NCBI GenBank assembly: GCA_029553475.1
Contig: JAKPKV010000114.1
Coordinates: forward strand, 186,001-250,000
Length of the DNA: 64,000 nt
DNA from: Armatimonadota bacterium
Lineage (GTDB): Bacteria > Armatimonadota > Hebobacteria > CAIYQO01
Reading direction: 5' to 3'
Part shown: piece after piece, positions 45,805 to 62,368 of the stretch
How positions within the stretch are numbered: position 1 is the first letter of the stretch
How the letters are laid out: every line of letters begins with the position of its first letter
Position numbers and translations under genes: made by a program
The notes under the pieces: model-generated
Database searches by the model: none
Seen by the model: the letters and a program-made list of their open reading frames with translations, nothing else
Told to the model about the DNA's origin: nothing

Positions 45805-46282
45805 CCGTCTCAGCCGCGCTGTCAGCAAGCAAGCAACGATGCGTGGCCTGTTGGGCCGGTGGCCAGGTGCAGGGTGCGCTACTGCAGAGGTGTCCATCAT
45901 CCTGCGCGTGTGTCATCCTCCGGCACTGCTCCCGACAGGGAAGCCGACCAATCCGTCGCTCCCCTTCCCAGGTAGGGGAGGGGGTGGGGGAGAGGTGAGC
46001 CCTCCGTTCCATCGCCAGGTGGGGGGCGTCCTATGCTGGACAGCGCTGATGATACCGGCAAACATGCGGTGTTCTTCGCCGGACTACTAGGGCAAATCGG
46101 AAGAATGCTGTTCCGCATTGGAGCTGTTGGGCACGGTTTCCCTGGGAGCGCGGCCATTCGCCTGCGCGGACAGCACAGTGGAAGAGCATGTTCATGATTT
46201 GCACTAGTATTACTCCCGTATGGATTTGATGACATCCTCAGCTTTGCACTGTAGCAGGTCAGTTGAAACAGCCGGGCGGTAT
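45805..46282. other. Gap without recognisable gene
   Basis: The interval contains a C/G-rich hairpin near 45,961-45,990 of the kind seen in other gaps of this window. I find no supported gene or promoter here. Confidence 0.5.
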
Positions 46283-46693: not shown

Positions 46694-47791
46694 TCAGATC
46701 GATGTCTGTAACCGTTGCTCACGTTCATGCCGCTCCAAGGCGAGATCAATGAGACGCTCCACCAGCTTGCCGTATGGCAGGCCGCTGGCTTCCCAAAGTT
46801 TTGGATACATGCTGATGCTGGTAAAGCCGGGGATGGTGTTGATTTCGTTGACTATCGCTTTACCGTTGGGGCGCAGGAAAAAGTCCACGCGCGCCATGCC
46901 TTCGCAGCAGAGCGTTTGGAACGTTTGTACGGCCAGTCGCCGGAGATGCTCTCCCGTGCCCTGCTCGATCTCCGCTGGAATCTTGAGTAACGCGCCATGT
47001 TCGTCCAGGTATTTGGCCTCGTAGCTGTAAAAGTCATGGGTCGGGATGATTTCACCCAGGCAGGATGCCGTTGGCTCGTCATTACCGAGAACAGCACACT
47101 CGATCTCCCGACCCTCGATGAATTCTTCGATGAGCACTTTTGTGTCGAACTTCAGGGCTTCCCGTAGCGCGGTTGCATAGTCCTCGGTGTTCGTTACCTT
47201 GCTTACACCGACTGAAGAACCAGCATTGGCGGGCTTGATGAAAAACGGCGAGCCGAGTCGCGTCACGACCTCATCATAGGTTAGCGTCACCGCGTGCCGC
47301 GCGTTCACTGCAAGGAAATTGGCCACGGGAATACCGGCGTCACGCAACAGCCGTTTCGCCACATCCTTATCCATGCCGACTGCCGAACCGAGCACCCCGG
47401 CACCGACAAAAGGCAGGTTTGCCAATTTCAACATCCCCTGCACTGTGCCATCCTCACCCAGTGGACCATGCAGCACCGGGAACACCACATCAATGGGCGT
47501 TGCGCGATGACTATCGGTCAAGACGGACAACCGCTGTTCACTACCGCCAGGTACGACGGCCACGGGATGTGCCGAAGGACAAAGGGCAATCTGCTCGGGG
47601 TCATCCGCATGCAGCAACGGCCGGGCGTTGTCGCATAATGCCCACCTCCCCTCCTTATCGATACCGATGAACACCATCTCAAATCGCTCGGGGTCCAGGG
47701 TGCGGATAATACTCTGCGCCGACAATAACGACACCGCATGCTCGGTCGATTTCCCGCCGAACACCACCCCAACACGAATCTTTCGTTCCAT
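46694..47791 (-). CDS. ddl: D-alanine-D-alanine ligase
   Basis: 365 residues, the usual length for DdlA-type enzymes. It begins RVGVVFGGKSTEHAVSLLSA. The ATP-grasp motifs IKPANAGSSVGVSKV and EINTIPGFTSISMYPKLW are intact. The omega loop reads YSYEAKYLD, with the Tyr typical of D-Ala-D-Ala rather than D-Ala-D-Lac ligases. It makes the dipeptide for peptidoglycan precursors in the cytoplasm. The base composition is lower in GC than the left part of the window and no other cell-wall gene is adjacent. It therefore looks acquired, perhaps giving tolerance to a ligase inhibitor such as cycloserine (inference). Confidence 0.95.
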   Translation of the reverse strand: MERKIRVGVVFGGKSTEHAVSLLSAQSIIRTLDPERFEMVFIGIDKEGRWALCDNARPLLHADDPEQIALCPSAHPVAVVPGGSEQRLSVLTDSHRATPIDVVFPVLHGPLGEDGTVQGMLKLANLPFVGAGVLGSAVGMDKDVAKRLLRDAGIPVANFLAVNARHAVTLTYDEVVTRLGSPFFIKPANAGSSVGVSKVTNTEDYATALREALKFDTKVLIEEFIEGREIECAVLGNDEPTASCLGEIIPTHDFYSYEAKYLDEHGALLKIPAEIEQGTGEHLRRLAVQTFQTLCCEGMARVDFFLRPNGKAIVNEINTIPGFTSISMYPKLWEASGLPYGKLVERLIDLALERHEREQRLQTSI

Positions 47792-47976: not shown

Positions 47977-48313
47977 CCTCCGGATGATGTCCGCAGCCCC
48001 ACCCACCAACCTCTGGATGGGGTGAGGGGTCGTCCGGAGGTTCCAGAGAATCAGAGGGAGAATTGGCCCATTTAGGGCTTTGTAGTGGGGCAAACGCTGT
48101 TTGGATCGTCCAGAGGTTTCGGTACCGAAAGGTGTTCACCCAGGCGGATTTGCGCGTAGAACGTGGCGTGTTGGTCCGAGGTCGCCCTGAGCCAACAAAC
48201 CGCCGAGAGGCGGTTTGAGGCGAAGATATGGTGGAGGAAAAGTGCCTGAAATCGAAAATTCTCCGAGGAAACAGGGATGAATGCCTACCAGAAATTCTTC
48301 GAAACTGATTCTA
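47977..48313 (+). repeat. Cassette-associated repeat, copy A
   Basis: It starts with the inverted box pair CCTCCGGA (47977) and TCCGGAGG (48033). A second direct box, GTCCAGAGG, is at 48108. AAACCGCC-GAGA-GGCGGTTT forms a hairpin at 48197-48216. It ends near CTGATTCTATCG. It lies immediately after the 3' end of the minus-strand endonuclease VIII-like gene. Confidence 0.8.
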
Positions 48314-48366
48314 TCGTATCTTCTATCGTACCAAGGATTGGATGATTATCCCTGAAACGCACGGCA

Positions 48367-49193
48367 CTATATTTCCTGGCATGCCGGGCAGCAATAGATG
48401 CTGCCGCCCATGAAGCTTGCCTTGCGGATGAGGCTCTCGCAGTCCGGGCAGGGTCGGTCCACCGTATATCTGCTCATCCTGGTCCGGTAACCTCCGGGAT
48501 TGCCGAAGAGGTCGGCTTCCGTGTCGCGCCCGCCCTGGTCGGTCATGGCCGCGAGGGTCGATTTCACCGCGGTGAACAGCGCGTCACGTTCCGGTGGCGT
48601 CAGGGTGGCGAGTTTATGCTTGGGATGGATTTTCGCCGCGAGAAGGATGTCTTGCAGGACGCCATTCCCCAGGCCGGGGATGCGCTGTTCGGTGGCGAGG
48701 AAGGTTTTGGCACAGAGTTTGTGCGTTGCCGGATCATCGAGCAGGTCACGGAAATAACGCGCGTCAAACGCCTGCGACAACGGCGAGGGCTTAGTCTTCG
48801 CTGTCTGATAATACGGGTTGTCCAAGGCACCGGCAGGGAAACACCACAACCCGCCGTACATCTGCACCGAGCCGATCACCGCGTCACCACCGGCGAATTC
48901 GAGCAGCAGTTGATGCTTGTGGGACGTTGTTCGCCACTCCGATACAGACGCAGCCCCGCACCTTCGGCAATCAGCAGGGTGACATCGTCAACGACGATCT
49001 CGACAAACCCGCCCCATGCGCAGGACGCGCCAACGGTTTTTCCGCACAACCGCGCCGGATACTCCCGCGGATCGCCGAAATACCAGGCCCACTTCTGCGG
49101 GGATGTCGCCGCAGTGACGGCGGCAATCCGCTTGCCCTGCACGGCGGCATTCAACTGTACCGCGAGCGCTTGTGCTTCCGGGATCTCTATCAT
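48367..49193 (-). pseudogene. Endonuclease VIII/Fpg-like DNA glycosylase with one frameshift
   Basis: Joining two frames at about 48,925 gives an unbroken protein of about 275 residues. The N-terminal part starts MIEIPEAQALAVQLN and continues with YFGDPREYP. After the shift come HKHQLLLEFAGGDAVIGSVQ and the C-terminal zinc finger CPDCESLIRKASFMGGSIYC. The family's N-terminal catalytic Pro is Ile here, as in a divergent Firmicutes-type subgroup, while the Glu is kept. It would excise oxidised bases. One indel could be decay or an assembly error. Confidence 0.8.
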
Positions 49194-49299
49194 GGCGGGG
49201 ATAGTCTCCTTCCTTTACGATCACGTAAGCGGCTGGTACATCATGCATCGAGTGGTAGGCAACCTTCATTTCTTCTCACCGTTAACAGTGGTCTCCGGC

Positions 49300-50109
49300 T
49301 CAACTGGAAATTGGACCACCTAGTAATGCATCGCGACACCGCCCGCATGAATGGTTTGCGCACCGTGTTATGTCGGGTGTCTCCCGAATCAGTCGTGTCG
49401 CCGTTTTGAGCACATCGTTTGCAGGCAAGATAATCCATTCACTACTGCCGACGCAGCTCTTTTTCGCGAATTGATCGAGAACGGGTGCGAATTGATCAAA
49501 TCCTTCTGAGCATCCACCACTTTCGACCATCATAGGCTGGCCATCCTGTGCGTTTGCCCAACGCCGAAATGGTGTGCGGCCAGCGAGTTTCTCCGCCAAA
49601 TGGAGTAACGTCATGCGCCGGTAGCTTACACCCGCTAAGAGAATTACCCCATTCATCTCTGAGAGTTTCTTAAGTGGAACGAATGCATCCACTGGCATTT
49701 GAGGCGCGATTAGGACTGCTGCAAGCGGGCCAACAGCACAAAAAGAGAGTAGGGGGTGGTTTCCTCGAAATCTAGAAGGCATGTTAACAATAGACTGTGG
49801 AATGGCACCCATATCTTTATCGATGACAGTACTTTCTGGCGTGTAAACTAGCGTACTCCTACTCTCAGACGTCCGATTATAGTCGTACCCATTTCGTTCA
49901 GGACGGAGGTGCTCTGGGGGCGGGATACGGAAATCATCGGCGAAGGTTGGTACCAATACTGTACATCTTTCGGCAAGAAATGCCTCGACAATAGTGGATG
50001 CTCCCTGGTCTACCCATCCGAATGAGCGCAGTGACGAGTGCAGACAAACCGGAAGACCGGAAAGCCCAAGGCTGCAGATCGAACTTCTAAGCTCTGCTTC
50101 AGTTAACAT
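49300..50109 (-). CDS. AAC(3)-family N-acetyltransferase (aminoglycoside acetyltransferase-like)
   Basis: 269 residues from the ATG at 50109, which follows CGGAGAG. Family signatures are LHSSLRSFGWVDQGASTIVE near residue 20, TVLVPTFADDF, and FRGNHPLLSFCAVGPLAA, which holds the conserved HP. The antibiotic-NAT fold uses acetyl-CoA and may modify the 3-amino group of aminoglycosides. Many environmental members have other or unknown substrates, so resistance is not proven. It starts 20 nt after the zinc-ribbon gene and is probably in one operon with it. Confidence 0.88.
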   Translation of the reverse strand: MLTEAELRSSICSLGLSGLPVCLHSSLRSFGWVDQGASTIVEAFLAERCTVLVPTFADDFRIPPPEHLRPERNGYDYNRTSESRSTLVYTPESTVIDKDMGAIPQSIVNMPSRFRGNHPLLSFCAVGPLAAVLIAPQMPVDAFVPLKKLSEMNGVILLAGVSYRRMTLLHLAEKLAGRTPFRRWANAQDGQPMMVESGGCSEGFDQFAPVLDQFAKKSCVGSSEWIILPANDVLKTATRLIRETPDITRCANHSCGRCRDALLGGPISS

Positions 50110-50129
50110 ATGCTCTCCGTGCTGATGCT

Positions 50130-50390
50130 TCAAAGCGTTCGCCAACGCTTCAGCTTTGGGATGCTTCGTGTCAGCATCCATGCGATGAACCCCGGCGTCC
50201 CCATCTCTTTTAGTTTGCCGACACAGAAGCGCTGCATGTCTGCAGCAGTCCGAATCTCGGGAGAAGTAAAGGCGCCATCCTGGTAGCAGTAGCTGCAGTA
50301 GTCGGTATTTTGGGTGCCGTCCTCGTTGGTTCCACCGTTCTCTGGATCCTTCTTCATCGGCATCCCGCAACTCTGACAGAACTTGTTCAC
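50130..50390 (-). CDS. Small zinc-ribbon domain protein
   Basis: 86 residues from a GTG with GGAGG 7 nt upstream. The N-terminus FCQSCGMPMKKDPENGGTN, then YCSYCYQDGAF, gives two Cys-x2-Cys pairs, the pattern of the putative zinc-ribbon family found in Firmicutes next to resistance or MarR-type genes. It is probably a small metal-binding accessory protein. The C-terminal FIAWMLTRSIPKLKRW resembles relatives. It is the first gene of the pair with the AAC(3)-type gene. Confidence 0.85.
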   Translation of the reverse strand: MNKFCQSCGMPMKKDPENGGTNEDGTQNTDYCSYCYQDGAFTSPEIRTAADMQRFCVGKLKEMGTPGFIAWMLTRSIPKLKRWRTL

Positions 50391-50593
50391 CTCGTTTCCT
50401 CCACATTGAGCTCGTTATTCTACGATAGCGACCATTTGCTCGGCAGGGGCCCACGATGGTATTGTCAACGACAGGGATCGTATTCCTCATTTCGGCAACG
50501 TCGCCTGCGGCTGACAATGAGAGCAAAGATGGGAACGATGTCTGCGCAATTGACACGTAAATGCTTCTCAGTGTTTTACAGCGCTTCCACCCC

Positions 50594-50599
50594 AGTATA
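50594..50599 (-). promoter_or_regulatory. Extended -10 element upstream of the zinc-ribbon/AAC(3) genes
   Basis: On the minus strand the sequence TGGTATACT is an extended -10. The -35 is weak. The roughly 200-nt leader to the start codon at 50390 holds no clear gene. Confidence 0.4.
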
Positions 50600-50769
50600 C
50601 CACTTTTCCGCTTTTTGAAAGATCGCTTCCGCATGGCGTTAACCTGGCTGGAGAATCTCGCAGAGCGGTAGAGCGAATCTGGCGATTTCGGGGGGAGGGG
50701 CGATGGCCGTAGTCTTAAGGTAAGGCCGTGCGATCTCTTTCGGAAAGCAGATTTGTGCTCACAGCGCAT

Positions 50770-51172
50770 TTACGGGATAGGTACCCGATACTCCCAACCT
50801 TCTCGCCAGCCAAAGTCCGCGCGAATCAGCTCCTCCAACGGGATGCCGTTGCGCAGATGATCAAACGCCCACCGGGTTGCCACATGTCCGATCACCAGCA
50901 CACGCGCGCCCTCCCAATAGGCGCAGAGATCAGGGAGCACACGTCCGACCCGCGTCACCGCTTGCCGCCAGCTCTCCCCATCGTGTGTGTGGAGGAGGCG
51001 GGCAATCACCGGCAGGATGTTCAGGGGTCCCTCCACCTTGGCAAAGCTCGCATCCGCCTGGCACCGCGCGGCGACTTCGCGCATGTTGGAGACATTGCTC
51101 ATGGGCAGTGTGGCTATCGGCAGCCCTGCCTGCCGGATATCACAGATCAACTCATCGCCGGGGTAGCCGGGT
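50770..51172 (-). pseudogene. Histidine phosphatase (phosphoglycerate mutase) family, N-terminus lost
   Basis: The open part reads GYPGDELICDIRQAGLP and ends with VLVIGHVATRWAFDHLRNG and FGWREGWEY, which is the C-terminal half of a histidine phosphatase domain with its second catalytic His (GHV). The essential N-terminal RHG motif is missing, because the frame runs directly into repeat copy B at 51,174. The 5' end appears to have been replaced by the repeat. Confidence 0.75.
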
Positions 51173-51173
51173 A

Positions 51174-51459
51174 GTGGACGAATTGGGGTAATCCGGAGCC
51201 TCCAGAGAATCAGAGAGAGAATTGGCCCGTTCGGGGCTTTTCAGCGGGAACCTCGTCCAGAGGTTTGGCGGTCGAAAGGTGTTCACACAGGCGGATTTGA
51301 GCGTAGAACGTGGCATGTTGGGCTATGTCCGCCCTAAGCCAAAAACCGCCCGGAGGCGGTTTGAGATGGGAGATATGCTGGAGGAAAGATGTCTGACATC
51401 GAAAATTCTCCAATGAAGTGGGGATGCGTGCCTACCAGAAATACTTCGAAACTGATTCT
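51174..51459 (+). repeat. Cassette-associated repeat, copy B
   Basis: It aligns throughout with copy A, including the box GTCCAGAGG (51255), the hairpin AACCGCC-CGGA-GGCGGTT and the end CTGATTCTATCG. The first box pair is degenerate (GTGGAC, ATCCGGAG). The similarity to copy A continues past the repeat into the duplicated glycosylase tail. Confidence 0.8.
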
Positions 51460-51501
51460 ATCGTACCAAGGATTGGATAATTATCCCTGAAACGCACGGC
51501 A

Positions 51502-51636
51502 CTATATTTCCTGGCAGTCCGGGCAGCAATAGATGCTGCCGCCCATGAATGTTTCCTTGCGGATGAGGCTCCCGCAGTCCGGGCACGGTCGGTCAAAGAT
51601 ATATAGGCTCATAGTGGTTCGGTAAATCTTGGACGA
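51502..51636 (-). pseudogene. Duplicated 3' tail of the endonuclease VIII-like gene
   Basis: About 44 codons encode RTTMSLYIFDRPCPDCGSLI followed by RKETFMGGSIYCCPDCQEI and a stop, the zinc-finger end of the gene at 48,367-49,193. The rest of the gene is absent. The fragment keeps the same distance to its repeat as the full copy does. Confidence 0.85.
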
Positions 51637-51647
51637 ACTTAAAACGG

Positions 51648-52328
51648 TCAATTCTTTATGTTTTCTTCTGCTTTTATCAGAAAATTATAAATAGGCGCGA
51701 GGATTTTATAACCTTCTGCTACTGTGGCAGATAGTTCGTCAGAATACAACAAGTCAAAGTCAGTGCTCTTCCTGAGAAAACAGATCGTTTTGCGATCAAG
51801 CCAATTTCGTAAATGTTCCGGCATATCGGGATACCGGCTTTTCTTATACAGATCACCTTCAAGCTGGAATATCTCTTGATTTTCATATGTCGAAAGCGCA
51901 GTATTGAAATCTTTATCACCAGATAATATCAGCCTGCGTATGCTTTCCATACTTGCAGTCCCCGCCGAATAATAACCACAGCCGTACAAAAAGCTATCAG
52001 GAGAAATAACGAAGAAAAACTCCGGCAATCCCGTGTTCTTTTCACGGACAAACATACACCACATGATGTCGCGAAACAGGGATTTATCCTTGGAAAAACG
52101 CGTGTCGCGCCATATGCGCGATACTGACCCGCCAACCTTTGGCGAGCAGATCAGCTTATCGTCAATATCCAACAGGACAGACGAAAGTTCATCGGCAAGC
52201 GATATCAATGGCGCGATCACAAATTCATGGTATTGCTCTTTATGCACCCCAAACCATGCTTTGTCATTTTGAAGACGGTTTTCAACGAGAAAATCGATGG
52301 TTTCCTGAGAAAATAAGGCGATCATCAT
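51648..52328 (-). CDS. DUF2461 family protein
   Basis: 226 residues. The conserved start FSQETIDFLVENRLQNDKAW, then RIWRDTRFSKDKSLFRDIMW and the YGCGYYSAG segment identify the DUF2461 (TIGR02453) family. The biochemical role is unknown. The ATG overlaps the TGA of the flavin-reductase gene (ATGA), so translation is coupled. It is the last intact gene of the MarR-led operon. The base composition is AT-richer than that of the host genes. Confidence 0.9.
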   Translation of the reverse strand: MMIALFSQETIDFLVENRLQNDKAWFGVHKEQYHEFVIAPLISLADELSSVLLDIDDKLICSPKVGGSVSRIWRDTRFSKDKSLFRDIMWCMFVREKNTGLPEFFFVISPDSFLYGCGYYSAGTASMESIRRLILSGDKDFNTALSTYENQEIFQLEGDLYKKSRYPDMPEHLRNWLDRKTICFLRKSTDFDLLYSDELSATVAEGYKILAPIYNFLIKAEENIKN

Positions 52329-52915
52329 TGCTCCTTCCTAAATAAATCCTTCCAATCTCCCGTCATGCCCTTCGGGACGGGGTTCAACGTATAATAGAGA
52401 CCTGCTCCTGAACTTTCCCAGATAACCGGCGCGGCTGATTTCATGCGTTCTTCCAAGCTTTTTGTTTCGTCCATGAGTTCTGTTGCTGCCAGAACATTGC
52501 GTATCTTGCAGATGAAAACCTCATTGCCTTGCAGCGGGATTGATTGATTGACCTCCAGCTCGTATACCCACGGGCTGTCCGTCAATATTGGAACATCCAG
52601 CACCGCGCCACGCTCAACCGCTATTGGTATATCCATCTTCCCCGGCGTATAGCCTGCGGTATGGCCCAGATAATCCGCGAGCGGGAGCAACTGTTCTGTC
52701 ACCAGATTCGCGGAAAAAACCTTGCTTGCGTGTATACGGTCAATCGTCAACTTTCGCTGGCCGATACTCGCCATGACGCCCAATTCTGAGTCCCAGCAAT
52801 AACTGAACCAGCAAAACAGTCCGAAATTTGGGGTGCCATCCTCTTTGTATGTCCCGTACATGAACAGTGCTTGGGGACAAAAAGAATTGATCTTGCCGAT
52901 TGATACTTTGTCCAT
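52325..52915 (-). CDS. Flavin reductase-like domain protein
   Basis: 196 residues. Segments SFCPQALFMYGTYKEDGTPN, then GVMASIGQRKLTIDRIHASK and FSANLVTEQLLPLADYLGHT, fit flavin reductase-like FMN-binding split-barrel proteins. It probably binds FMN and reduces flavin or acts as a flavin-dependent oxidoreductase. It lies downstream of the MarR regulator and a 44-residue protein, in an arrangement common in Firmicutes redox or stress operons. Confidence 0.85.
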   Translation of the reverse strand: MDKVSIGKINSFCPQALFMYGTYKEDGTPNFGLFCWFSYCWDSELGVMASIGQRKLTIDRIHASKVFSANLVTEQLLPLADYLGHTAGYTPGKMDIPIAVERGAVLDVPILTDSPWVYELEVNQSIPLQGNEVFICKIRNVLAATELMDETKSLEERMKSAAPVIWESSGAGLYYTLNPVPKGMTGDWKDLFRKEQ

Positions 52916-52983
52916 GGGTCATACTCCTCTCAGTTTCAAAAACTTGTTTTTCTCACGCTTACATTAAGCGTGGTTTACCTGGA

Positions 52984-53118
52984 TTAAGCTCCTTGCGAAA
53001 TCTCACGCACTTGATCGACTAATTCGTGTTCGCAATACTCCATGTCCACGGCATCATACAGGCTGTTGGCCGCATCCAACCAGACGGGATCATAATCTTG
53101 TCTTAACCTGTAATACAT
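52984..53118 (-). CDS. 44-residue protein between MarR and flavin-reductase genes
   Basis: The frame starts at the ATG at 53118, overlapping the end of the MarR gene by 16 bp. It encodes an acidic peptide with YRLRQDYDPVWLDAANSLYD and YCEHELVDQVREI. The overlap and acidic, helix-prone composition suggest a real, coupled product. No family is recognised. A 7-bp hairpin (CACGCTT/AAGCGTG, 52954-52972) lies between this gene and the next. Confidence 0.5.
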   Translation of the reverse strand: MYYRLRQDYDPVWLDAANSLYDAVDMEYCEHELVDQVREISQGA

Positions 53119-53600
53119 CGCTTTCCTTCCTCTTGCATGTCTCCTTTATCAAATGCTTCCTCTGCGGTGGTGACGTTGGTCAGGATCCGGCGCAGTGTGC
53201 CCTCGAATTGCCCGATCTCGGCTGAAGAAAGCCCCGCGTAACATACGGCGTTCATGGCTTCCGAAACGGCAGTGTAGCGGTCCTCCCATTCCCTGTGCTT
53301 CTCCGTGAGACGCACCAGGATGCTGCGGCGGTCGTTGGGTGACGGGACTCGCGTGATCCACCCATCCTGCTCCAACCGGTCCAGCATATTGGTCAGTGTC
53401 GACTTTTTGAGCGCGGTGCGAGCCGCTAAGGCCTGGATCGGGATACCGTCCCCCTGCCAGAGCGCAAAGAGGATGCGCCCCTGCGCCGGATTGAATTCTT
53501 CAACGCCGTGCTGCTTCAGCAACCGCGCGAAGACCCGCCCGCTGATGTGATGGATTTTCGCAATGAGAAAGCCGCCTTCATGCTCGATCTGCACTGGCAT
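53103..53600 (-). CDS. MarR-family transcriptional regulator
   Basis: 165 residues. The winged helix-turn-helix covers residues 50-110, with IPIQALAARTALKKSTLTNM, LDRLEQDGWITRVPSP, then NDRRSILVRLTEK, the canonical MarR DNA-binding region and wing. It probably responds to a small ligand or oxidant and represses its own operon. A palindrome, TATAGT-n-ACTATA, overlaps the promoter at 53,835-53,864. The start overlaps the end of the preceding small gene by 23 bp. Confidence 0.92.
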   Translation of the reverse strand: MPVQIEHEGGFLIAKIHHISGRVFARLLKQHGVEEFNPAQGRILFALWQGDGIPIQALAARTALKKSTLTNMLDRLEQDGWITRVPSPNDRRSILVRLTEKHREWEDRYTAVSEAMNAVCYAGLSSAEIGQFEGTLRRILTNVTTAEEAFDKGDMQEEGKRCITG

Positions 53601-53799
53601 CCACCGTGAATTGCATGGTCTCTTTCGTCATGTCGTGATAATATTCGGCGAAGACGGGCCGAATCCGCACGATGGTGTAATCCATGCCTTCGAGGCCGCG
53701 GTCGTAATACCCCGCCCCCCCGTCCTCCCATAGGCCTCGCTTGATCGTCATGTCAGCGCCCACTTCGGCATCCCCTGCCACCAGCAAACCTTGCCTCAT
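53578..53799 (-). CDS. Short pyridoxamine-phosphate-oxidase-like protein, probably N-terminally truncated
   Basis: 73 residues. LLVAGDAEVGADMTIKRGLW, then YTIVRIRPVFAEYYHD, resembles the second half of PPOX/general-stress FMN-binding proteins. The first half of the domain is missing, yet an ATG with AAAGGAGAATCCGC just upstream makes it a plausible expressed gene. It is the first frame after the operon promoter. It may be a deletion remnant kept as a leader gene, so the assignment is tentative. Confidence 0.5.
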   Translation of the reverse strand: MRQGLLVAGDAEVGADMTIKRGLWEDGGAGYYDRGLEGMDYTIVRIRPVFAEYYHDMTKETMQFTVDASADRA

Positions 53800-53834
53800 T
53801 GCGGATTCTCCTTTATGGAGTAATAATCTGATAT

Positions 53835-53864
53835 AGTATAGTTTTGTATCGTACTATATGTCAA
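53835..53864 (-). promoter_or_regulatory. Promoter/operator of the MarR operon
   Basis: On the minus strand, TTGACA (53859-53864) and TATACT (53835-53840) are 18 bp apart. The spacer and -10 form an inverted repeat, TATAGTACGATACAAAACTA, that is a likely MarR operator. Binding there would block RNA polymerase. Confidence 0.8.
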
Positions 53865-53989
53865 GTGCTTGCTTCTAATAGAGAGCGAGGGCCTAGCAAA
53901 ACTGGAATATTGTTAATAAGATGGAAGCTACAAAGCACGGCCCCCATGTATGTCAACCCCAAACCTGACCACAATTGGGAGGAACGTAG

Positions 53990-54290
53990 CCTGTGGACGG
54001 GTTTGAGGTAGTCCACAGGTTTTAGAGAAACAGAGAGAGAAAAGGCCGATTTTGGGCTTTTGTGGGGTATGAGCGCCGGCACCTCGTCCACAGGTTTTGC
54101 CATCCAAATGTGTTCAAACAGGCCGATTCGTGCGTAGAAAGTGGCGTGTTGAGCGATGGTCGCCCTGAGCCAAAAAACCGCCGAGAGGCGGTTTGCGGCG
54201 AAGGTATGGTGGAGGAACAGTATCTGAAATCGAAAGGTCATGGCGAGATATGGTTCGAGTGCCTACCAGGTGCATAAGCAAACTGATTCT
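53990..54290 (+). repeat. Cassette-associated repeat, copy C
   Basis: Box 1 is CCTGTGGAC (53990), box 2 GTCCACAGG (54011) and box 3 GTCCACAGG (54086). All three carry the same variant core. The hairpin AAACCGCC-GAGA-GGCGGTTT follows near 54,176. It ends about 65 bp from the 3' end of the GNAT pseudogene. Confidence 0.8.
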
Positions 54291-54355
54291 CAGTGCAGAG
54301 AATAATATCTGTTTACTGCGATTGTAGGAGAGTTGGCTCGCCGGATCGGTCTGCA

Positions 54356-54862
54356 TCATACCGTCTCCAGATCGATCCAGTACCGCGCATGCGCCTTACC
54401 GGTTTCGGAGTCCGTGCCGTCAGAGTCGCGCACGGTACCGTTCTTGACCATCGCCCGGGCAGAGGCGTAGTTGTCGAGATTGCAGGTGAGCAGCACGCGT
54501 GCCAGTCCCAGCGTGCGCGCCTTGTCAAGCGCCTGCGCTAACATGCGGGTCGCGCATCCCTGCCCGCGTCGGAGGGGCGCACGAAGTAGCCGATGTGGCC
54601 ACCGCAGTTTTCCAGCGCGGGGGTGAGGCGGTGGCGCAGTTTTAACACGCCAACCATCCGATCACCACGCACCGCCCAGTAGACATTCTGCGGTACCGCC
54701 CAGTCCGGCAGACCCTCGCCCCGTGCCTCACGTTTGAGCTGTTCTACGAACACAGCGAAATCGTCTCCCGGCAGGCGGTAATACCTCTCCGGATCTCCAT
54801 TCTCCACGAATTCGGCGATGAAGGCCAGCTATTCTTGCTTGAGGTAGGTGGTCGGGTCGACG
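54356..54862 (-). pseudogene. GNAT-family acetyltransferase, broken by a stop and a frameshift
   Basis: The reading HLVDPTTYLKQE-stop-LAFIAEFVENGD shows a TAG replacing a Tyr codon. Then ERYYRLPGDDFAVFVEQL, VYWAVRGDRMVGVLKLRHRL and GHIGYFVRPS follow. A frameshift near 54,570 leads into RGQGCATRMLAQALDKA and the C-terminal half. The acetyl-CoA loop (RGQGCA) falls right at the shift. It is fused in frame to the end of the upstream HAD gene. Confidence 0.85.
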
Positions 54863-55604
54863 AGATGTATATCATCATTCGCTGGCAGATTCACGTTCAG
54901 ATATGTCATGACTTGTTCAATCCGTTCGATCACCGGCCCGTCCCATTGGCGGGGATCGGCTTCCCGCATGACAATATCCCGTTCGTGTAGCGCGCAGAGC
55001 AGAACGGGCGTCATATCGGCCTGCCGGGCGCCGGTGAGTTCGCGACCGCTGCCATCGCCGACGTAGAGGCATCGCGCCGGTGGAACGCCTAATTGCGCAT
55101 AGATGAGTTGATACAATCGCGGGTCGGGCTTGCGCGCGCCGGCGGCACAGGAGAAGACCGTGGCGTGGAAGCGCCCGGCAAAGGCCGTCTGCTCCCACAC
55201 GTCGGGCACTTCCCACGAGCAGTCGCTGAGCAGCCCCAGCTTGTATCGTTGCGCCGCCAGCGCGCCAGCGCGGCTAGCGTGTCAAGGGTGCCGGAGCGTG
55301 GTGTCAGACTGCCCAGGCCAAAGCGCACGCGCTGTAACTGGACGGCGCGCTCGACCATCTCGTCCGTGGGCATAATGCCGAAGCGATCGCAGATGTAGCG
55401 GATTTGCGCCGCCGTGCTCGGTAGACTCCCCACGCGGCGCTGGTGGCGAAACTGCTCTTCCACCCAGCAGGCAATGAACGCCTCGCGGTCGATACCAAGC
55501 ATCTCCGCCGTCTCGCGCAGGCAGGTGTGATACACCTGATCGGTCACATTATCAACGAGCGTGCCGAAGAGGTCAAAAATCACTGCATCATACCGCCGGT
55601 TCAT
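54829..55604 (-). pseudogene. HAD-superfamily hydrolase, one frameshift, in-frame run into GNAT
   Basis: Starting at 55604 (AAAGGAACCCGT before the ATG), motif I is VIFDLFGTLVDN. The cap domain follows. Near 55,265 the frame shifts, after which YKLGLLSDCSWEVPDVWEQ is recovered. KPDPRLYQLI and the metal motif YVGDGSGRELTGARQADM are in the second frame. The expected C-terminus VIERIEQVMTYL has no stop and continues into GNAT-like sequence. It would be a small-molecule phosphatase if intact. Confidence 0.85.
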
Positions 55605-55619
55605 ACGGGTTCCTTTCAT

Positions 55620-55950
55620 AACGCATAACGACCACGTGCAATATTAACCACCTTCGCTAGCTAATACAGCAAATCCTGTCAAAGAACAGGAGGATTACAT
55701 TGATAAAAAGAGCAGGAGCCTATAGGCGTAATATACGGCTTCGAACACCCATCATCTCCCAGGCACATACCATCGTTCGAACAGCACATAGAGAACTGCC
55801 GACTAAGAGGCAAAAACCCCTCATTTTTCGACTCCCACCCGGAGAAGGAGAAAGAGGAGAGACCCGGCCCAACACGTTATTCATCCTCAATTTGACCTCA
55901 AAATATCCCTGTGATCCCATTCTCTCTCCGCCCCACAAACTGTCTCAGCA
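55620..55950. other. Gap between HAD gene and repeat D
   Basis: About 330 bp without a convincing gene or promoter for the HAD gene. The sequence is AT-richer than the host genes. Confidence 0.45.
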
Positions 55951-56245
55951 CCTCCGGACTGAAGATCCGGACGAGGTCGGGCTAGTCCGGAGGTTTCAGA
56001 GAATCAGAGAGAGAATCAGCGTGTTTTGGGTTGAAATGGGGTGGATAAGCGCAGCACCTCGTCCGGAGGTTTTGCCGCCCGAAGGTGTTCAGACAGGCCG
56101 ATTCGTGCGTAGAAATACGCGTGTCGGGCTCTGCACGCTCTAAGCTGAGAAACTGCCCAGAGGCGGTTTGCGGCGAAGGTATGGTGGTGCAAGAGTGCCT
56201 GGGATCGAATGCTCTCCGAGTGAACAGTGATGTCTCCTCATGCGA
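55951..56245 (+). repeat. Cassette-associated repeat, copy D
   Basis: Box 1 is CCTCCGGAC (55951), box 2 GTCCGGAGG (55985) and box 3 GTCCGGAGG (56061), all with the CGG core. The hairpin region is degenerate here (AAACTGCC-CAGA-GGCGGTTT). It ends about 30 bp from the 3' end of the intact GNAT gene. Confidence 0.8.
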
Positions 56246-56277
56246 AGGGGAGTCGAGATGTCTTCTAAAACGTATTA

Positions 56278-56769
56278 TCACACGAGTGATATGCTCATAG
56301 GGATGTAATCCATCTCTTGCCCATTACGGAATCGATGCTTATCCCGTTGTCCAGATTGAAATCCAGCTTTCTGATAAAAAGCTTCAGCAAACAGTGATGA
56401 TCGACACCACACTAGGGATAGTCCAACTCGGTTTGCTTCGGTGAGTAACCTGTTGAGGATGCAGGTTCCGATACCTTGCCTGACAAATGCTGGTAAGACA
56501 AACATACCTGTAATTTCGCCAGTATTACAATCCAATGTCCCGAAACCGACTGCACATGAGTCGATCTCGGCAACGAGAACGAATTGATATTCCTTTGTCA
56601 TATAACGCTCGGGACACAGGCCATCTCCCCAAGCCTTGACCTCACCATCCGTATAAACCATTCTCCCTAGATCAAAGATCGACGTGCGTTGAATATGGCA
56701 CAACGTTTCTCGATCTTGTTGAGTGGCTTTGCGAAGCTTTATGCGATTATTATCCGACATATAGATCAT
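56278..56769 (-). CDS. GNAT-family N-acetyltransferase behind an attenuator
   Basis: 163 residues from the ATG at 56769, which has AGGAG about 9 nt upstream. Motifs are IKLRKATQQDRETLCHIQRT, FVLVAEIDSCAVGFGTLD, then the acetyl-CoA-binding GMFVLPAFVRQGIGTCILNR with the Q/RxxGxG/A pattern. The C-terminal AEAFYQKAGFQSGQ is typical. The substrate is unknown. The gene has its own promoter, a leader peptide and a terminator hairpin directly upstream, so it is probably induced by a ribosome-targeting compound or amino acid shortage (inference). It is intact, unlike its neighbours. Confidence 0.9.
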   Translation of the reverse strand: MIYMSDNNRIKLRKATQQDRETLCHIQRTSIFDLGRMVYTDGEVKAWGDGLCPERYMTKEYQFVLVAEIDSCAVGFGTLDCNTGEITGMFVLPAFVRQGIGTCILNRLLTEANRVGLSLVWCRSSLFAEAFYQKAGFQSGQRDKHRFRNGQEMDYIPMSISLV

Positions 56770-56803
56770 AATGCCTTGCTTCTCCTGCTGGATTTTACCA
56801 CCT

Positions 56804-56912
56804 AAAAAACCCAAGGGTACTACCCTTGGGTCTGGACGGTGTATGCTGTTTAATAAGCCTAGTCTTACCTTACCCAGCAGCAAATCGTCCAGACCCCTTG
56901 TTAAGAAGGGGT
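56804..56912 (-). promoter_or_regulatory. Transcription attenuator with alternative hairpins
   Basis: Read on the minus strand: hairpin 1 is ACCCCTT/AAGGGGT (56893-56912). Then a 10-bp stem CGTCCAGACC/GGTCTGGACG joins 56829-56838 to 56886-56895. Then a perfect 9-bp terminator stem CCCAAGGGT/ACCCTTGGG (56810-56830) is followed by six T (56804-56809). Hairpin 1 and the long stem share three bases, as do the long stem and the terminator, so the folds compete. Confidence 0.75.
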
Positions 56913-56953
56913 TGGAATGCCAACAGACTAAACTGGGTAAGCAGAGTGCGCAT
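56870..56953 (-). CDS. Leader peptide of the GNAT attenuator (27 residues)
   Basis: The ATG at 56953 has GGAG 5 nt upstream. The peptide begins MRTLLTQFSLLAFQPLLN and ends GRFAAG. Its codons run through hairpin 1 and into the first arm of the long stem, so the position of a ribosome on it would decide which hairpin forms. The arrangement resembles leader peptides of antibiotic-inducible resistance genes. Confidence 0.7.
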   Translation of the reverse strand: MRTLLTQFSLLAFQPLLNKGSGRFAAG

Positions 56954-56971
56954 ATTATCTCCGATAACGGT

Positions 56972-57000
56972 AGTATAGGGAGTGATTGCTCTATCGTCAA
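56972..57000 (-). promoter_or_regulatory. Promoter of the attenuated GNAT gene
   Basis: On the minus strand, TTGACG (56995-57000) and TATACT (56972-56977) are 17 bp apart. Transcription would start near 56,965, only a few bases before the leader-peptide ribosome binding site. Confidence 0.8.
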
Positions 57001-57028
57001 TGAGAACTATGCACGGTTTCAGCTATAA

Positions 57029-57258
57029 CCTCCGGACAAGATAATGGGGTAGTCCGGAGGTTTCAGAGAAAGAGAGAGATTTAGCCGATTTTGGTCGATT
57101 TGGGGGCTTTGGGGCGGGAACCGAGTCCACAGGTCCTGCGGGCGAAATGTGTTCACCTAGGCCGATTTGAGCGTAGAAGGTGGCGTGTTGGGCCGAGGTC
57201 GCCCTCGGCCGAAAAACTGCCGAGAGGCGGTTTGCGGCGAAGATATGGTGGAGGCGGG
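57029..57258 (+). repeat. Cassette-associated repeat, copy E
   Basis: Box 1 is CCTCCGGAC (57029), box 2 GTCCGGAGG (57052) and box 3 GTCCACAGG (57125), so the third box carries the other variant. The hairpin AACTGCC-GAGA-GGCGGTT follows. It is the last copy and marks the right edge of the minus-strand gene array. The four-gene plus-strand operon begins beyond it. Confidence 0.8.
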
Positions 57259-57543
57259 GCGTACCCCTGAATATCCACAGCATTATCGTACCGCGCCGTC
57301 GCTAACAAATTGAGGCGAAATCGAGCAGGGTTCGTCACGGCACGTGTTTCCCTGCTCTCCTCAATCCGCTTCCTCGTCTTTCTTCGTATCTTTCGTAGGG
57401 GCGGGCCTTCCATGTGTTTCAAACTATGCGGCAAGTGCCATTTCTGCAATGCCCTTCGCCAGGCACCATCACTTTGTCCAGCGCAATTCTATGCTGCCAA
57501 GGTTTTGAGAAGGCCCGCATCAAGTATTGTAGCATGAAGGCCG

Positions 57544-57608
57544 ACAACCCCCAATCCCTGTCCTTCATACCTTTCGCCAGGAATATACATGCGCAAGAAG
57601 GGGGTTGT
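57544..57608 (+). promoter_or_regulatory. Leader hairpin covering a ribosome-binding-like G-run
   Basis: ACAACCCCC (57544-57552) pairs perfectly with GGGGGTTGT (57600-57608). The G-run lies 6-10 nt before an in-frame ATG at 57611 that could serve as an alternative, longer start of the kinase gene. No gene is visible in 57,259-57,543. Confidence 0.5.
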
Positions 57609-57703
57609 TAATGAATGGCGAAAGTTGCGGTAAACGCCTAGAGAAAGATAGTGCTCTTCGCACTCATTGGGTTTCTTTCGATACCTCCAAAGGGGAATTG
57701 CTA

Positions 57704-58339
57704 ATGAATACCCCAAAAAAGGGCATCTTTATCACTATTGAAGGTGGGCATGGCACTGGGAAAACTGCTTGCATTTCTCATCTTCGCGAACGTCTCGTTG
57801 AACGCGGGCAAACAGTTGTTTTGACCAATGACCAATCTGGAACAGCACTCGGCAAGCAAATACGTGCCATCAACCTTACAAACCATCCGGTTAATCCAGA
57901 TTTTCTGACTGAAGCGTTACTTATCGCAGCGGCGAGTAGACAGAATCTCGTCGAAGTAATCAGACCGTCACTAGCACGAGGAGATATTGTGATATGTGAA
58001 CGCTATGGTGACGCCTTTTATGCCTTCCAGGGCTTTGGGAGGCATATAGAGATGGCTTTTCTACAATCACTACGTAGTCGGATCGAAGAAGGTATGGCTC
58101 CTCCTGATGTAACATTGCTTCTTGACGCACCTGCTGCAGTAACACTCTCTCGTTTGTTACCCGCTTCACGGCACCGCATCGAGCGTGAATGCTTGCATTT
58201 CCATGAAGCAGTCCGTCAAGGTTACATTACTATAGCTTCTGACAACCAGGAGAGAATAACCGTTATAGATGCTCTTATGCCACTTCCCGATGTATTAGAA
58301 ACCGCTTGGCAACACCTGTGCCAGAAGCTCAAACTATAA
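57704..58339 (+). CDS. Thymidylate kinase-like nucleotide kinase
   Basis: 211 residues from the ATG at 57704; a longer start at 57611 would add 31 residues. The P-loop FITIEGGHGTGKT is at the N-terminus. ICERYGDAFYAFQGFGR is the substrate-binding DR-Y motif with Glu in place of Asp. PDVTLLLDAPAAVTLSR and the lid segment HFHEAVRQGYITIA follow. The family phosphorylates dTMP to dTDP with ATP. The changes EGGHG for EGxDG and ER for DR could indicate an altered nucleotide. It is the first gene of a tight AT-rich operon whose next start is 12 nt downstream. Confidence 0.88.
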   Translation: MNTPKKGIFITIEGGHGTGKTACISHLRERLVERGQTVVLTNDQSGTALGKQIRAINLTNHPVNPDFLTEALLIAAASRQNLVEVIRPSLARGDIVICERYGDAFYAFQGFGRHIEMAFLQSLRSRIEEGMAPPDVTLLLDAPAAVTLSRLLPASRHRIERECLHFHEAVRQGYITIASDNQERITVIDALMPLPDVLETAWQHLCQKLKL

Positions 58340-58351
58340 GGACGTTCATTC

Positions 58352-59257
58352 ATGTTAGGCTCTAATGTTCCGACAACAGGTGGCTTCAAGGTAGGCTTCA
58401 CGTTCGCAGAAGAGTGGGGTTGCGAATGCATCCAGCTTTATTTGACTAGTTCGCGGCGGTGGGCTGTTCCGCCACTTGATCCCATAATGCGCGAAGCTTT
58501 CCGAACAACTTGGCAAGAAAGCCACGTGAGCGCTATAATCTCCCATATCCCTTTCCTAGTCAACCTAGCATCGCCCGATAAGGAACTCTGCGAGAAATCG
58601 GTTGATCGTCTGGCAGTAGAACTCCAACGTGCCTTTGATCTAGGCATAACAACAGTAGTGTTACACCCTGGGAGTGCGAAAGGTATACCTTACTCATCAG
58701 CGTTATGTCGTGTTGCAGACAACATACGCATTGCTGTCACAAGGGCCAAGGTAGAATCCATTAACCTTCTGGTCGAAACGATGGCAGGGCAAGGAACATC
58801 ACTGGGCTCGAAGTTTGAACAACTCGCTGAGATCATAGCTTTGGTGAAGGACGACGTAAAGATTGGAGTATGCGTAGATACTGCACATATATATGAAGCT
58901 GGATATGACATTAAAGGGTATGACGGATATTCGCATATCTGGGCATTGTTTGATAAAGTCATCGGTATCCAACGGCTTGGGGCCATTCATGTGAATGATT
59001 CACTTGCGCCTTACAATTCTAGAATTGACCGACATGCGCCAATTGGTGAAGGACAAATTGGGTTACAGTTCTTCCATGCACTCGTCCGGGACGCACGCTT
59101 CGATAGAGTGCCTATCATTTCTGAAGTTCCCGATTTGTTAGCCGATGGTGAGAGAAACTTTCGATTACTAGTGAAGCTCCGTGATATGCCAAATGATTTG
59201 CCTGCAGATGATAATCGAATAATAACCGGGGTTATGCAATACACACTACCGTTCTAA
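58352..59257 (+). CDS. Endonuclease IV (Nfo)-like AP endonuclease family protein
   Basis: 301 residues. All nine zinc ligands of the family can be matched: His in SHIPFLVNLAS, His in LHPGSAKG, Glu in ETMAGQG, Asp and His in CVDTAHIYEAGYD, His in HVNDS, Asp and His in RIDRHAPIGEGQIG, and Glu in ISEVP. The spacing fits Nfo, so a metal-dependent TIM barrel that nicks DNA at abasic or damaged sites is likely. The N-terminus GSNVPTTGG matches the GAHVSxxGG of Nfo. Placement between a nucleotide kinase and a dNTPase is unusual. Confidence 0.9.
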   Translation: MLGSNVPTTGGFKVGFTFAEEWGCECIQLYLTSSRRWAVPPLDPIMREAFRTTWQESHVSAIISHIPFLVNLASPDKELCEKSVDRLAVELQRAFDLGITTVVLHPGSAKGIPYSSALCRVADNIRIAVTRAKVESINLLVETMAGQGTSLGSKFEQLAEIIALVKDDVKIGVCVDTAHIYEAGYDIKGYDGYSHIWALFDKVIGIQRLGAIHVNDSLAPYNSRIDRHAPIGEGQIGLQFFHALVRDARFDRVPIISEVPDLLADGERNFRLLVKLRDMPNDLPADDNRIITGVMQYTLPF

Positions 59258-59281
59258 CGTTGCGTCCAGAGGAAGGAGTTT

Positions 59282-60577
59282 ATGATGATCCGCGAAAAGA
59301 TTAAGGATTTTAGAGCGAAACACGCACTCACACAATATGTTGAAATTTCGGGAGAGGAAAGCACAAGGCGGGTATACCACCACGACCGTGCTGAAGTAAC
59401 ATATTGTCCGTATTTTAGACGGATGGCATTTCGTCGTTATCATTTTCCGAATCGTGGGCCAGAAAACAGAACGAGATTATTGCACAGCATTGAAGTATCT
59501 ACAATGGCTTCAGGTATGGCAAGGCGTCTGCTGGTTGATGTTGACCTTACTGAAGCAATCGCACTTGGACACGATATCGCCCAACCACCGTTAGGTTATC
59601 CAGTCGAGGGATTATTACGCGATTTTGTTGGCGATGGCCAGTATAATCATGCAAAACTTAGCTCGCGAATACTATTATGGAACTCCTTGAAAGACGAAGG
59701 TACAAAGCAATTTGAGGAATTAGAATCGCGAGGGTGTTATTCTATTGTAGAAATTAATGGTGGTGGTAAGAAGATCGCTACAATCACGGATGAAGCGATT
59801 GATGGGATAATGAAACATACACCACCATACGTTGAAGGACGCCCATCCATAGTTGCTGACCCTCCTCTCACGATTGAAGGACAACTTGTCAGAGTTGCTG
59901 ATACACTTTCCTACATTTCTCAGGAGATAGACGAGGCGCTTAGGATTAATAAGTCATTTGTTGAAAAACTGCAATCCTATGCAGGATGCGATACGTTTAC
60001 TTTACACACAGATTCCAAAGATATTGTAATGACACGTGAAGATTTACTAGCGCCGCCATTCCCTAGATCAACGAATTACGGTGAAAATTTTCTTAACTGG
60101 ATATTTAGCCCTGCATTCGGACCGCATGTAACTTCTATGATCCGCAGGTTTGAAGAAGTAGCAAAGGCACAATTGCTGACAAAACAATGTGACCGAAAGC
60201 CTTCGCACTATTGCGAACGTAGTAGATTACCTATCTTGCCATTTGATCCTACTTTACAATTTCTTATTGATTTTCTTTGGAAAGACTTTATTATTGATAC
60301 AGTGAATCAAGAGCCAGTGATCGTATCAGTTGTCGAGAACAATAGAAGTAAAATATGCAAGTTACTTGATCTATTGTATAAATATATTGACGATTACCGT
60401 GACAATGAGTTGGAGACCAGAAGACATGAATTACGAACCTATGAATTATCACTTAAAGAAGGTACAGAGTTATTCACTCGTGTTTTAATAGCAAATTATA
60501 TATCTTGCCTTACCGATGAAGGCGTTGATATTGCTCTTAGTCAGCTAGAAGAAATCAGTCGGAGGAGTGCTGTATGA
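59282..60577 (+). CDS. dGTPase-like HD-domain triphosphohydrolase
   Basis: 431 residues. The start follows GGAAGGAG. CPYFRRMAFRR corresponds to the conserved SxAFRR of dGTPases. RTRLLHSIEVS contributes His68, ALGHDIAQPPLGYPVE contributes His97-Asp98, and VADTLSYISQEID near residue 205 gives the last metal Asp. Such enzymes cut dNTPs to nucleoside and triphosphate, and bacterial members can deplete dNTPs against phage. The stop overlaps the radical SAM start (ATGA). The gene is distinctly AT-rich. Confidence 0.9.
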   Translation: MMIREKIKDFRAKHALTQYVEISGEESTRRVYHHDRAEVTYCPYFRRMAFRRYHFPNRGPENRTRLLHSIEVSTMASGMARRLLVDVDLTEAIALGHDIAQPPLGYPVEGLLRDFVGDGQYNHAKLSSRILLWNSLKDEGTKQFEELESRGCYSIVEINGGGKKIATITDEAIDGIMKHTPPYVEGRPSIVADPPLTIEGQLVRVADTLSYISQEIDEALRINKSFVEKLQSYAGCDTFTLHTDSKDIVMTREDLLAPPFPRSTNYGENFLNWIFSPAFGPHVTSMIRRFEEVAKAQLLTKQCDRKPSHYCERSRLPILPFDPTLQFLIDFLWKDFIIDTVNQEPVIVSVVENNRSKICKLLDLLYKYIDDYRDNELETRRHELRTYELSLKEGTELFTRVLIANYISCLTDEGVDIALSQLEEISRRSAV

Positions 60578-61680: not shown

Positions 61681-61697
61681 AGTATGGCCATTATGAT

Positions 61698-61880
61698 ATG
61701 CGACGAGTTGCAATGCTTACTGAGCAGGAGTTCAGATACACATATTATTACAAGAATTATCGCATGGACACTTTACCCGTCAAGGAGTGGTTATGGTTTG
61801 ATTTGTGCCAACTGGCTTGCAGATACCTGCGCTCACTTCTACAACGTCTCCCGATTGCGGTTATCCTGCATACGAAGTAA
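61698..61880 (+). CDS. Possible small protein after the operon
   Basis: 60 residues, with TEQEFRYTYYYKNYRMDTLP and WLWFDLCQLACRYLRSLL. It begins 17 nt after the radical SAM stop but has no good ribosome binding site. It could be an expressed small protein or a 5' gene remnant. Alternative frames across 61,684-61,947 look less protein-like. Confidence 0.3.
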   Translation: MRRVAMLTEQEFRYTYYYKNYRMDTLPVKEWLWFDLCQLACRYLRSLLQRLPIAVILHTK

Positions 61881-61965
61881 ACGAAATAACGTTATGGTTA
61901 GTAATGGTTGCTTTGTCAACCGAGAAACTCCATACGCATTCAAGTAGGGAGCTGCCGACATAGTT

Positions 61966-61999
61966 AAGGATACCTGTATGCCCTACCCCCGGTATCCTT
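61966..61999. terminator. Hairpin downstream of the four-gene operon
   Basis: AAGGATACC pairs perfectly with GGTATCCTT across a 16-nt loop. There is no T-tract. The rest of 62,000-62,368 holds only a weak 61-codon minus-strand frame (62,005-62,190) that I do not recognise. Confidence 0.35.
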
Positions 62000-62368
62000 G
62001 AAACCTAAGCCTTCCTTTTCGCAACGGCCATCTGGCATTTTTTTATATGCGAGACAAGCCCGCCCGCCTTGAAATCTTCCAACCGGCCCACTTCTCCCCA
62101 TAACCGCATGACTTTAGAGTTATACGACACCATAACGCGTAAAGACGGACAACCGTCGTATCGAACCCATACCGCCTTTCTAAAAGCCAATAAAAGAGAC
62201 CCCCAACAAAAATTTACACGCCATCGGATGAATAGCTAGAGCTGGACACGACTTACCTTAACTGCAAAAGGGATTCATCTAGGCGTCGGAGAAACAATAG
62301 CTATATCAGTTTCGGTATTTTTGCACAGTGCATTCTGTAGCATTTCTCCTAATTGGGGGAGCCGGCCC

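Follow-up and report, generated by a model that had tools for sequence, protein, structure and literature searches.

Five copies of a repeat, A to E, in a 64,000-nt stretch of an Armatimonadota genome (the window, on contig C186 of an assembly of 5.27 Mb in 194 contigs) are probably the junctions of mobile elements that integrated in turn, site-specifically, at the 3' end of ssrA, the gene for transfer-messenger RNA (tmRNA). The core of the repeat is identical to the ssrA 3' end, copy E and ssrA hold a matching pair of attachment (att) sequences, and the end module of the repeat lies directly against ssrA in a relative and close to a tRNA end in the same genome. Similarity between junctions frequently breaks at the core, and the DNA between the copies is foreign in composition. 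These observations suggest that an essential RNA gene has served as a loading dock for stacked foreign genes, without an integron, in an uncultured phylum. The stacked genes include acetyltransferases, a relative of AAC(3), and repair and redox genes, and a defence-rich island adjoins them.

Repeat copies, att sites and the ssrA island

The copies all lie on the plus strand, as an earlier reading of the letters alone (the sequence-only reading) had reported, and they belong to one repeat family, with 190 nt of each at 64-78% identity to a reference copy. Aligned with copies from five genomes, each proves to be a composite of an end module, R (about 220 bp), and a short core, TATGGTGGAGG; copies A-D have in addition a left-end module, LE, whose start is roughly AANAGTGCCTGAAATCGAA. 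In copy A, R (48003-48229) runs into the core (48227-48237), which is the reverse complement of the ssrA 3' end, and the LE of the next element follows (48238-48312). Copy B has R at 51171-51376, a core with one mismatch at 51374-51384 and LE to about 51460, and copy C has R at 53985-54207, its core at 54205-54215 and LE to about 54290. The core of copy D (R at 55952-56182) is degenerate, TATGGTGGTGC at 56180-56190, and is again followed by LE. In copy E (R at 57017-57246) the core at 57244 is part of a longer one, ATATGGTGGAGGCGGGG (57243-57259), and unrelated sequence stands in place of LE. One of 100 shuffles of the window reached the same number of core matches. The intervals A-B, B-C, C-D and D-E measure 3.15, 2.83, 1.98 and 1.06 kb, and their borders keep att sites derived from the target gene. 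The sequence-only reading had the starts of copies A-D close to gene 3' ends; it is instead the right (LE) end of the copies that lies there.

The ssrA gene is intact and lies outside the window, on the minus strand at C186:272925-273317, 29.7 kb to the right of copy E (ARAGORN). Its 3' end, read on the plus strand, falls within ATATGGTGGAGGCGGGGGGAGTCGAACC. The 17-nt core of copy E occurs exactly twice in the 5.27 Mb, in copy E (C186:243243) and at ssrA (C186:272922-272938), 29,679 bp apart, and its reversed control occurs nowhere. Between the two lies a low-G+C island (C186:243260-272938, its first part being window positions 57260-64000) that reaches ssrA and is bounded by the intact gene and a direct repeat of its 3' end. 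At its ssrA end the island encodes a 527-aa large serine recombinase (LSR), whose open reading frame (ORF) runs into ssrA. This LSR matches the Pfam Recombinase family (2.2e-21), and its best NCBIfam match is CcrB (2.9e-36, below the equivalog cut-off). The copy E core and ssrA are most plausibly the two att sites that belong to this one island.

The G+C content drops from about 0.7 to about 0.5 near window position 46 kb. It is 0.48-0.58 in the cargo intervals between the copies and 0.50 in the island, and 0.71 and 0.69 in the flanks; array and island are foreign in composition. Used as a DNA query of its own genome, copy A returns the five copies and one 65-bp partial match, and copy C the five copies and one 46-bp partial match. 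In a profile search of fetched stretches of the genome, contig C156 shows one more copy, which is divergent, and C163 a fragment.

An all-against-all comparison was made of 24 junctions from five genomes, with 700 bp on each side and with the first G of GGTGGAGG as the reference point for positions. The end of the left-anchored similarity blocks falls at +4 to +9 in 21 of 41 cases, and the start of the right-anchored blocks at -4 to -1 in 22 of 34. Similarity thus breaks at the core often but not always, in 43 of 75 partial blocks, and such breaks are what site-specific recombination there would be expected to leave. The clearest case is a 334-bp module beside ssrA in G006, a genome from another family of the class, which recurs at two other loci with 88-97% identity up to the core and is followed there by LE instead of ssrA. 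This case and the left-anchored breaks of the own family are free of the bias that comes from collecting sites by a pattern (see below).

The elements would have carried R at their ssrA-proximal end and LE at their distal end. Integration would split the target at the core (TGGTGGAGG...) and keep ssrA intact, and each later element entering at ssrA would push the older ones away, leaving R-core-LE at every old border. The 29.7-kb island with its CcrB-like serine recombinase would have entered last, and separately, between copy E and ssrA. The movers of the R-LE elements may have been LSRs like those that accompany R in relatives and on a phage contig, which either acted in trans or have disappeared since. 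The small packages may be cis-mobilizable remnants or passengers, and could have arisen as decayed larger elements or as natural single-gene passengers.

R contains an inverted repeat, roughly CCTNNGGAC / GTCCNNAGG, and an additional direct copy of GTCCNNAGG. The R modules of the own family also hold a hairpin, AAACYGCC-NNNN-GGCGGTTT. It lies immediately downstream of the ssrA end and, judged by eye, might be the ssrA terminator. The variable dinucleotide of the inverted repeat agrees between the arms in 9 of 17 rows, against a mean of 4.5 in shuffled data, where 82 of 10,000 shuffles score as high; the agreement of the third site is less clear (6 and 8 of 17 rows, reached by 711 and 468 of 10,000 shuffles). 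The pattern would fit an inverted plus direct repeat, for example protein-binding arms, and is not strong evidence for an RNA. A structured RNA was also considered for the repeat and rejected: the RNAalifold hairpin model of the five copies has a covariation term of +4.16, which leaves a conserved RNA unsupported. No Rfam family matches at E<=1 over window positions 44-60 kb.

R modules and recombinases in relatives and on a phage contig

R adjoins tmRNA and tRNA genes elsewhere as well. In G002, the same-family metagenome-assembled genome (MAG) DeMMO6_22, R stands directly against ssrA, and in G006 it lies 0.3 kb from ssrA (E=1.4e-7) with a second module in between. On C156 of the own genome, 28 bp separate the end of the divergent R from the 3' end of a tRNA-Ala gene, and the final bases of this gene, taken on the other strand, are TGGTGGAG. 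On the same contig, about 2.3 kb between the tRNA-Ala gene with its divergent R and LE-like repeats (L021, 7513-9880) contains one 554-aa ORF with sigma-70 domains.

Among 291 genomes of the phylum, 4 contain the exact R pattern (reversed control 0), and these all belong to the own class; the count is too low, as the divergent copy of the same-genus genome G001 was missed. In a public genome collection, from which the record of the own genome may have been left out, the pattern occurs on three contigs of one MAG. A core-LE pattern, allowing up to 3 mismatches, occurs 4 times in the related genome G004 and 8 times in G006, with a reversed control of 0 in both. These dispersed junctions are in stretches L118-L125, L092, L093 and L095, and two pairs of them lie 2.3-2.5 kb apart in the same direction.

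A contig end lies within 400 bp on the 3' side of ssrA at 6 of 30 loci, 4 of the 6 in the own class, and on the 5' side at 0 of 30 (30 of the 34 matches over the cut-off had loci). This is indirect evidence that would fit a sequence varying beyond ssrA. Stacking at ssrA may explain why 4 of the 8 class members with a placed ssrA have a contig end within this distance of its 3' end.

LSR genes, or N-terminally truncated remains of them, lie near R in G002 (contigs C96 and C38) and G001 (C677), and are 87-88% identical over the C38 overlap. A 61-aa piece of the C38-type family is found on a fourth contig, C149. G001 and G002 together have 6 contigs with R, 4 of which carry the family, and 11 zinc-ribbon recombinase hits. 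An LSR with a small partner ORF occurs near R in three stretches (L014, L017 and L019) and on one tailed-phage contig. In G001 and G002, 0.8 to 1.8 kb separate the small ORF from R.

The phage contig, IMGVR_UViG_3300031566_000041, was the one hit when viral contigs were scanned with the R pattern. Its first 2.3 kb (L129) has the order recombinase, small ORF, R, with a gap of about 0.1 kb, and its R matches the model over positions 11-125 only. Its recombinase shares 57% identity with the C38 protein, and its small ORF 47-53% with the ORF that follows the recombinase in G001 and G002. This small ORF and the one on C96 both belong to phrog_14161 ('recombinase'), and the phage contig has tail and baseplate genes. 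A stricter R pattern found nothing in the viral collection, and the phage LSR used as a query there confirmed only its own contig. The end of the phage contig looks by eye like a tRNA T-arm, and ARAGORN found no tRNA in it. R is probably a portion of the attachment region in phage-type serine integration modules. A related pair of recombinase and small ORF, a possible helper, is on contig C34 of the own genome, where the closest relative of the L017-type LSR in this genome lies.

Candidates for the associated recombinase that the sequence-only reading had proposed to look for are the serine recombinase ORF running into ssrA and the LSRs near R in relatives. A tyrosine recombinase was not found on C186, where 0 of the 10 PF00589 hits of the genome fall.

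Alternative explanations and known systems

Several observations weigh against successive integration at ssrA. The left border of the array was not found, and the left flank (40.0-46.25 kb) gave only scattered matches in G001, G002 and G006, with no empty site. An LSR of the L017 type was not seen on C186, the LSR there being 26% identical to that of L017, and G006 has one weak LSR hit only. The ssrA flank of G004 resembles R only weakly (E=0.029), and the LE-like stretches on C156 are weak (E 0.0004 and 0.11) and lie about 2.2 kb away, on the far side of the tRNA-Ala gene. A mechanical terminator scan did not list the R hairpin and showed no excess of terminators (12 found vs 11.3 expected). 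In the comparison of junctions another 12 left-anchored blocks extend to +26 to +28, where the conserved start of LE ends. Of the 105 blocks, 12 run through the core, 8 are out of register and 10 belong to no class. Moreover, 13 of the 24 sites had been collected by a pattern that begins at the core, which favours breaks there. In the fetched stretches of 9-20 kb around the dispersed junctions of G004 and G006 no tRNA or tmRNA gene was found, so targeting of ssrA and tRNA genes does not explain all junctions. Those of G004 and G006 seem to sit at ordinary gene ends and not to be explained by accretion at ssrA alone.

The dispersed junctions would suit a different account, in which R-core-LE is a scattered repeat like a miniature inverted-repeat transposable element (MITE) or a repetitive extragenic palindrome (REP) that inserts preferentially downstream of genes, the core is like ssrA because this gene is one favoured target, and the cargo belongs to an ordinary island. 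It would also suit the orientation of the neighbouring genes: at 19 of 25 sites the nearest ORF on the right has its 3' end towards the junction, counting by simple ORF picking the first ORF of at least 100 aa with its low end at +50 or beyond (the plus-strand call at copy A is an ORF without a Pfam match that overlies an Fpg-like gene). This account is improbable, as full copies in the own genome occur only at the ssrA island, plus a divergent one at tRNA-Ala, R and LE are also seen in other combinations, and the core is a frequent place for similarity to break. The sequence-only reading had held that a repeat found genome-wide between core genes, with no preference for gene 3' ends, would speak against a cassette-like array. 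The own genome does not show such a distribution, and the junctions in G004 and G006 are dispersed but mostly face gene 3' ends.

Copies A and B have in common, besides R and LE, 170 nt at 90% identity that represent the 3' end of the Fpg-like gene; the gene follows copy A, and a remnant of its 3' end follows copy B. It is therefore likely that recombination within the array has replaced cargo at least once, and this shared remnant and the broken genes among the cargo favour some decay and recombination. Growth of the whole array by duplication and homologous recombination between R copies, with no dedicated recombinase, is very unlikely, since the remaining identified cargo differs between intervals, its composition is foreign, and about half of the similarity breaks coincide with the core.

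Integron cassettes are gene-sized packages in a one-orientation array with the recombination site beside gene 3' ends, and the attC motif is RYYYAAC ... GTTRRRY. The units here are likewise gene-sized and of one orientation with a site adjoining gene 3' ends, and on one G004 contig 1.1 kb lie between an XerC/D-like recombinase and a junction with LE. It is nevertheless strongly disfavoured, and extremely improbable, that the array is a true integron whose attC sites are unusual and whose tyrosine integrase is encoded far away. The sequence-only reading had seen no attC, and indeed there are 0 RYYYAAC/GTTRRRY pairs within 160 nt on either strand in the five copies and across 46.2-57.3 kb. There is also no Rfam match, no IntI nearby and no own tyrosine recombinase hit on C186, and the core is the 3' end of ssrA, which is the entry point here.

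The closest published case for integration at ssrA is that of the Dehalococcoides ssrA islands, a likeness taken from their published description, with no Dehalococcoides sequence compared. In that description, tandem low-GC islands downstream of ssrA are bounded by a 20-bp repeat of its 3' end. An integration module is present in 16 of the 31 islands, with a CcrB-like recombinase gene that overlaps the att/ssrA 3' end, and the module has six genes, including a second recombinase and RecF-, ParB- and Mom-like genes; the 15 islands without it are read as possibly cis-mobilizable and joined by accretion (PMC3146451). The 29.7-kb island resembles these in its place, its repeat and its CcrB-like recombinase overlapping att (PMC3146451). 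Unlike the islands described there, the packages here are 1-3 kb in size, their junctions carry an R of about 220 bp and an LE and not just a 20-bp repeat, R goes with an LSR and a small ORF in relatives and on the phage contig, and the phylum is Armatimonadota. The sequence-only reading had proposed an integron-like array with a different accumulation mechanism. Foreign cargo between recombination-site-like sites of the same orientation is indeed present, but an unknown integron-like mechanism is unsupported because the core is an ssrA end, ssrA lies 29.7 kb from copy E beside a serine recombinase, and accretion at ssrA has already been described (PMC3146451).

Other known systems share parts of this arrangement. 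In the accretion described for cis-mobilizable elements (CIMEs), integrative and conjugative elements (ICEs) and integrative and mobilizable elements (IMEs), integrase-less elements keep their att sites and a new element enters at the att beside the target gene (PMC5704250). The array is similar in its stacking of elements with att sites and no integrase among their scanned ORFs (PMC5704250), and differs in its element ends and recombinases; conjugation genes were not searched for. Tycheposons and tRNA-anchored flexible islands are described as having a tyrosine recombinase and a size of 4-200 kb (PMC10872708). They too are cargo-carrying elements anchored at a tRNA, whereas the array involves serine recombinases, a tmRNA and units of 1-3 kb. 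Among the titles and abstract openings listed from the armatimonad literature on mobile genetic elements, tmRNA and genomic islands, none describes such an array. What is new against the known systems is the small package size, the large conserved R and LE modules, the recombinase link through the phage contig, and the phylum.

The combination of a large conserved att-side module with very small packages makes a natural serine-recombinase cassette system possible. Such a system would parallel integrons: single genes with a portable R/LE attachment module (about 220-300 bp) would circulate as 1-3 kb units, enter at the 3' end of tmRNA or tRNA genes, stack in one orientation, and also spread as R-core-LE to other gene 3' ends, as in the G004/G006 lineage. 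This extension is tentative, and rather unlikely to hold in full.

Cargo and other features of the region

The sequence-only reading had placed all genes between the copies on the strand opposite to the repeats. This agrees with the Pfam matches, which among the ORFs scanned between the copies fall on minus-strand ORFs only, with 0 of the 10 plus-strand ORFs of at least 80 aa in the A-E stretch matching. No scanned ORF in the intervals, on either strand, matches a recombinase.

Left of copy A, a minus-strand gene of the D-Ala-D-Ala ligase family (46694-47791) is probable cargo, with no junction found to its left. The cargo of the A-B interval, all on the minus strand, begins with the Fpg/MutM-like glycosylase gene, which is split into two ORFs (48367-49193). 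It is followed by an ORF whose C-terminal half matches AAC(3)-type N-acetyltransferases (49300-50769; NCBIfam scores below the cut-off) and a histidine-phosphatase-like fragment (50770-51150) that covers only profile positions 113-168, below the curated cut-off. Between copies B and C the minus strand encodes a DUF2461 protein (51648-52328), a flavin-reductase-like protein (52325-52915) and a MarR-family regulator (53103-53600).

The C-D interval holds, on the minus strand, a GNAT acetyltransferase fragment (54538-54807) and a HAD-like hydrolase gene broken into two ORFs (54829-55619). The fragment is an 89-aa piece without a Pfam match; 83 residues of it align at 78% identity with a GNAT protein of 181 aa in G002. 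A minus-strand GNAT acetyltransferase gene (56278-57000) is the sole Pfam-matching ORF among those scanned between copies D and E. Compared with G001, G002, G004 and G006, the cargo DNA gave only three matches besides R: the acetyltransferase region in G002 (C370, 76%) and in G001 (C122, 73%), and an 83-bp stretch in G002 (C370). The 12 and 10 kb fetched around the acetyltransferase matches on C370 and C122 contain no R and no tRNA.

The 29.7-kb island encodes SspB-, SspC- and SspD-like proteins, a HerA-like ATPase and an OLD/GajA-like ATPase. Among five ORFs scanned near its LSR, Prim-Pol and DUF3987 were the only Pfam matches. The island also holds a gene run of thymidylate kinase, TIM barrel, HD and radical SAM proteins.

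Elsewhere in the window, a stretch of about 40 bp at 45959-46000 has about 30 short matches in G001 and is probably a dispersed short repeat. The stretches at 6.2-6.6, 18.4, 19.6-21.4 and 28.0-28.4 kb are similar to one another and match the start of a gene on C163 that by eye is pseudopilin-like. A selenocysteine tRNA gene is predicted at 3262-3336.

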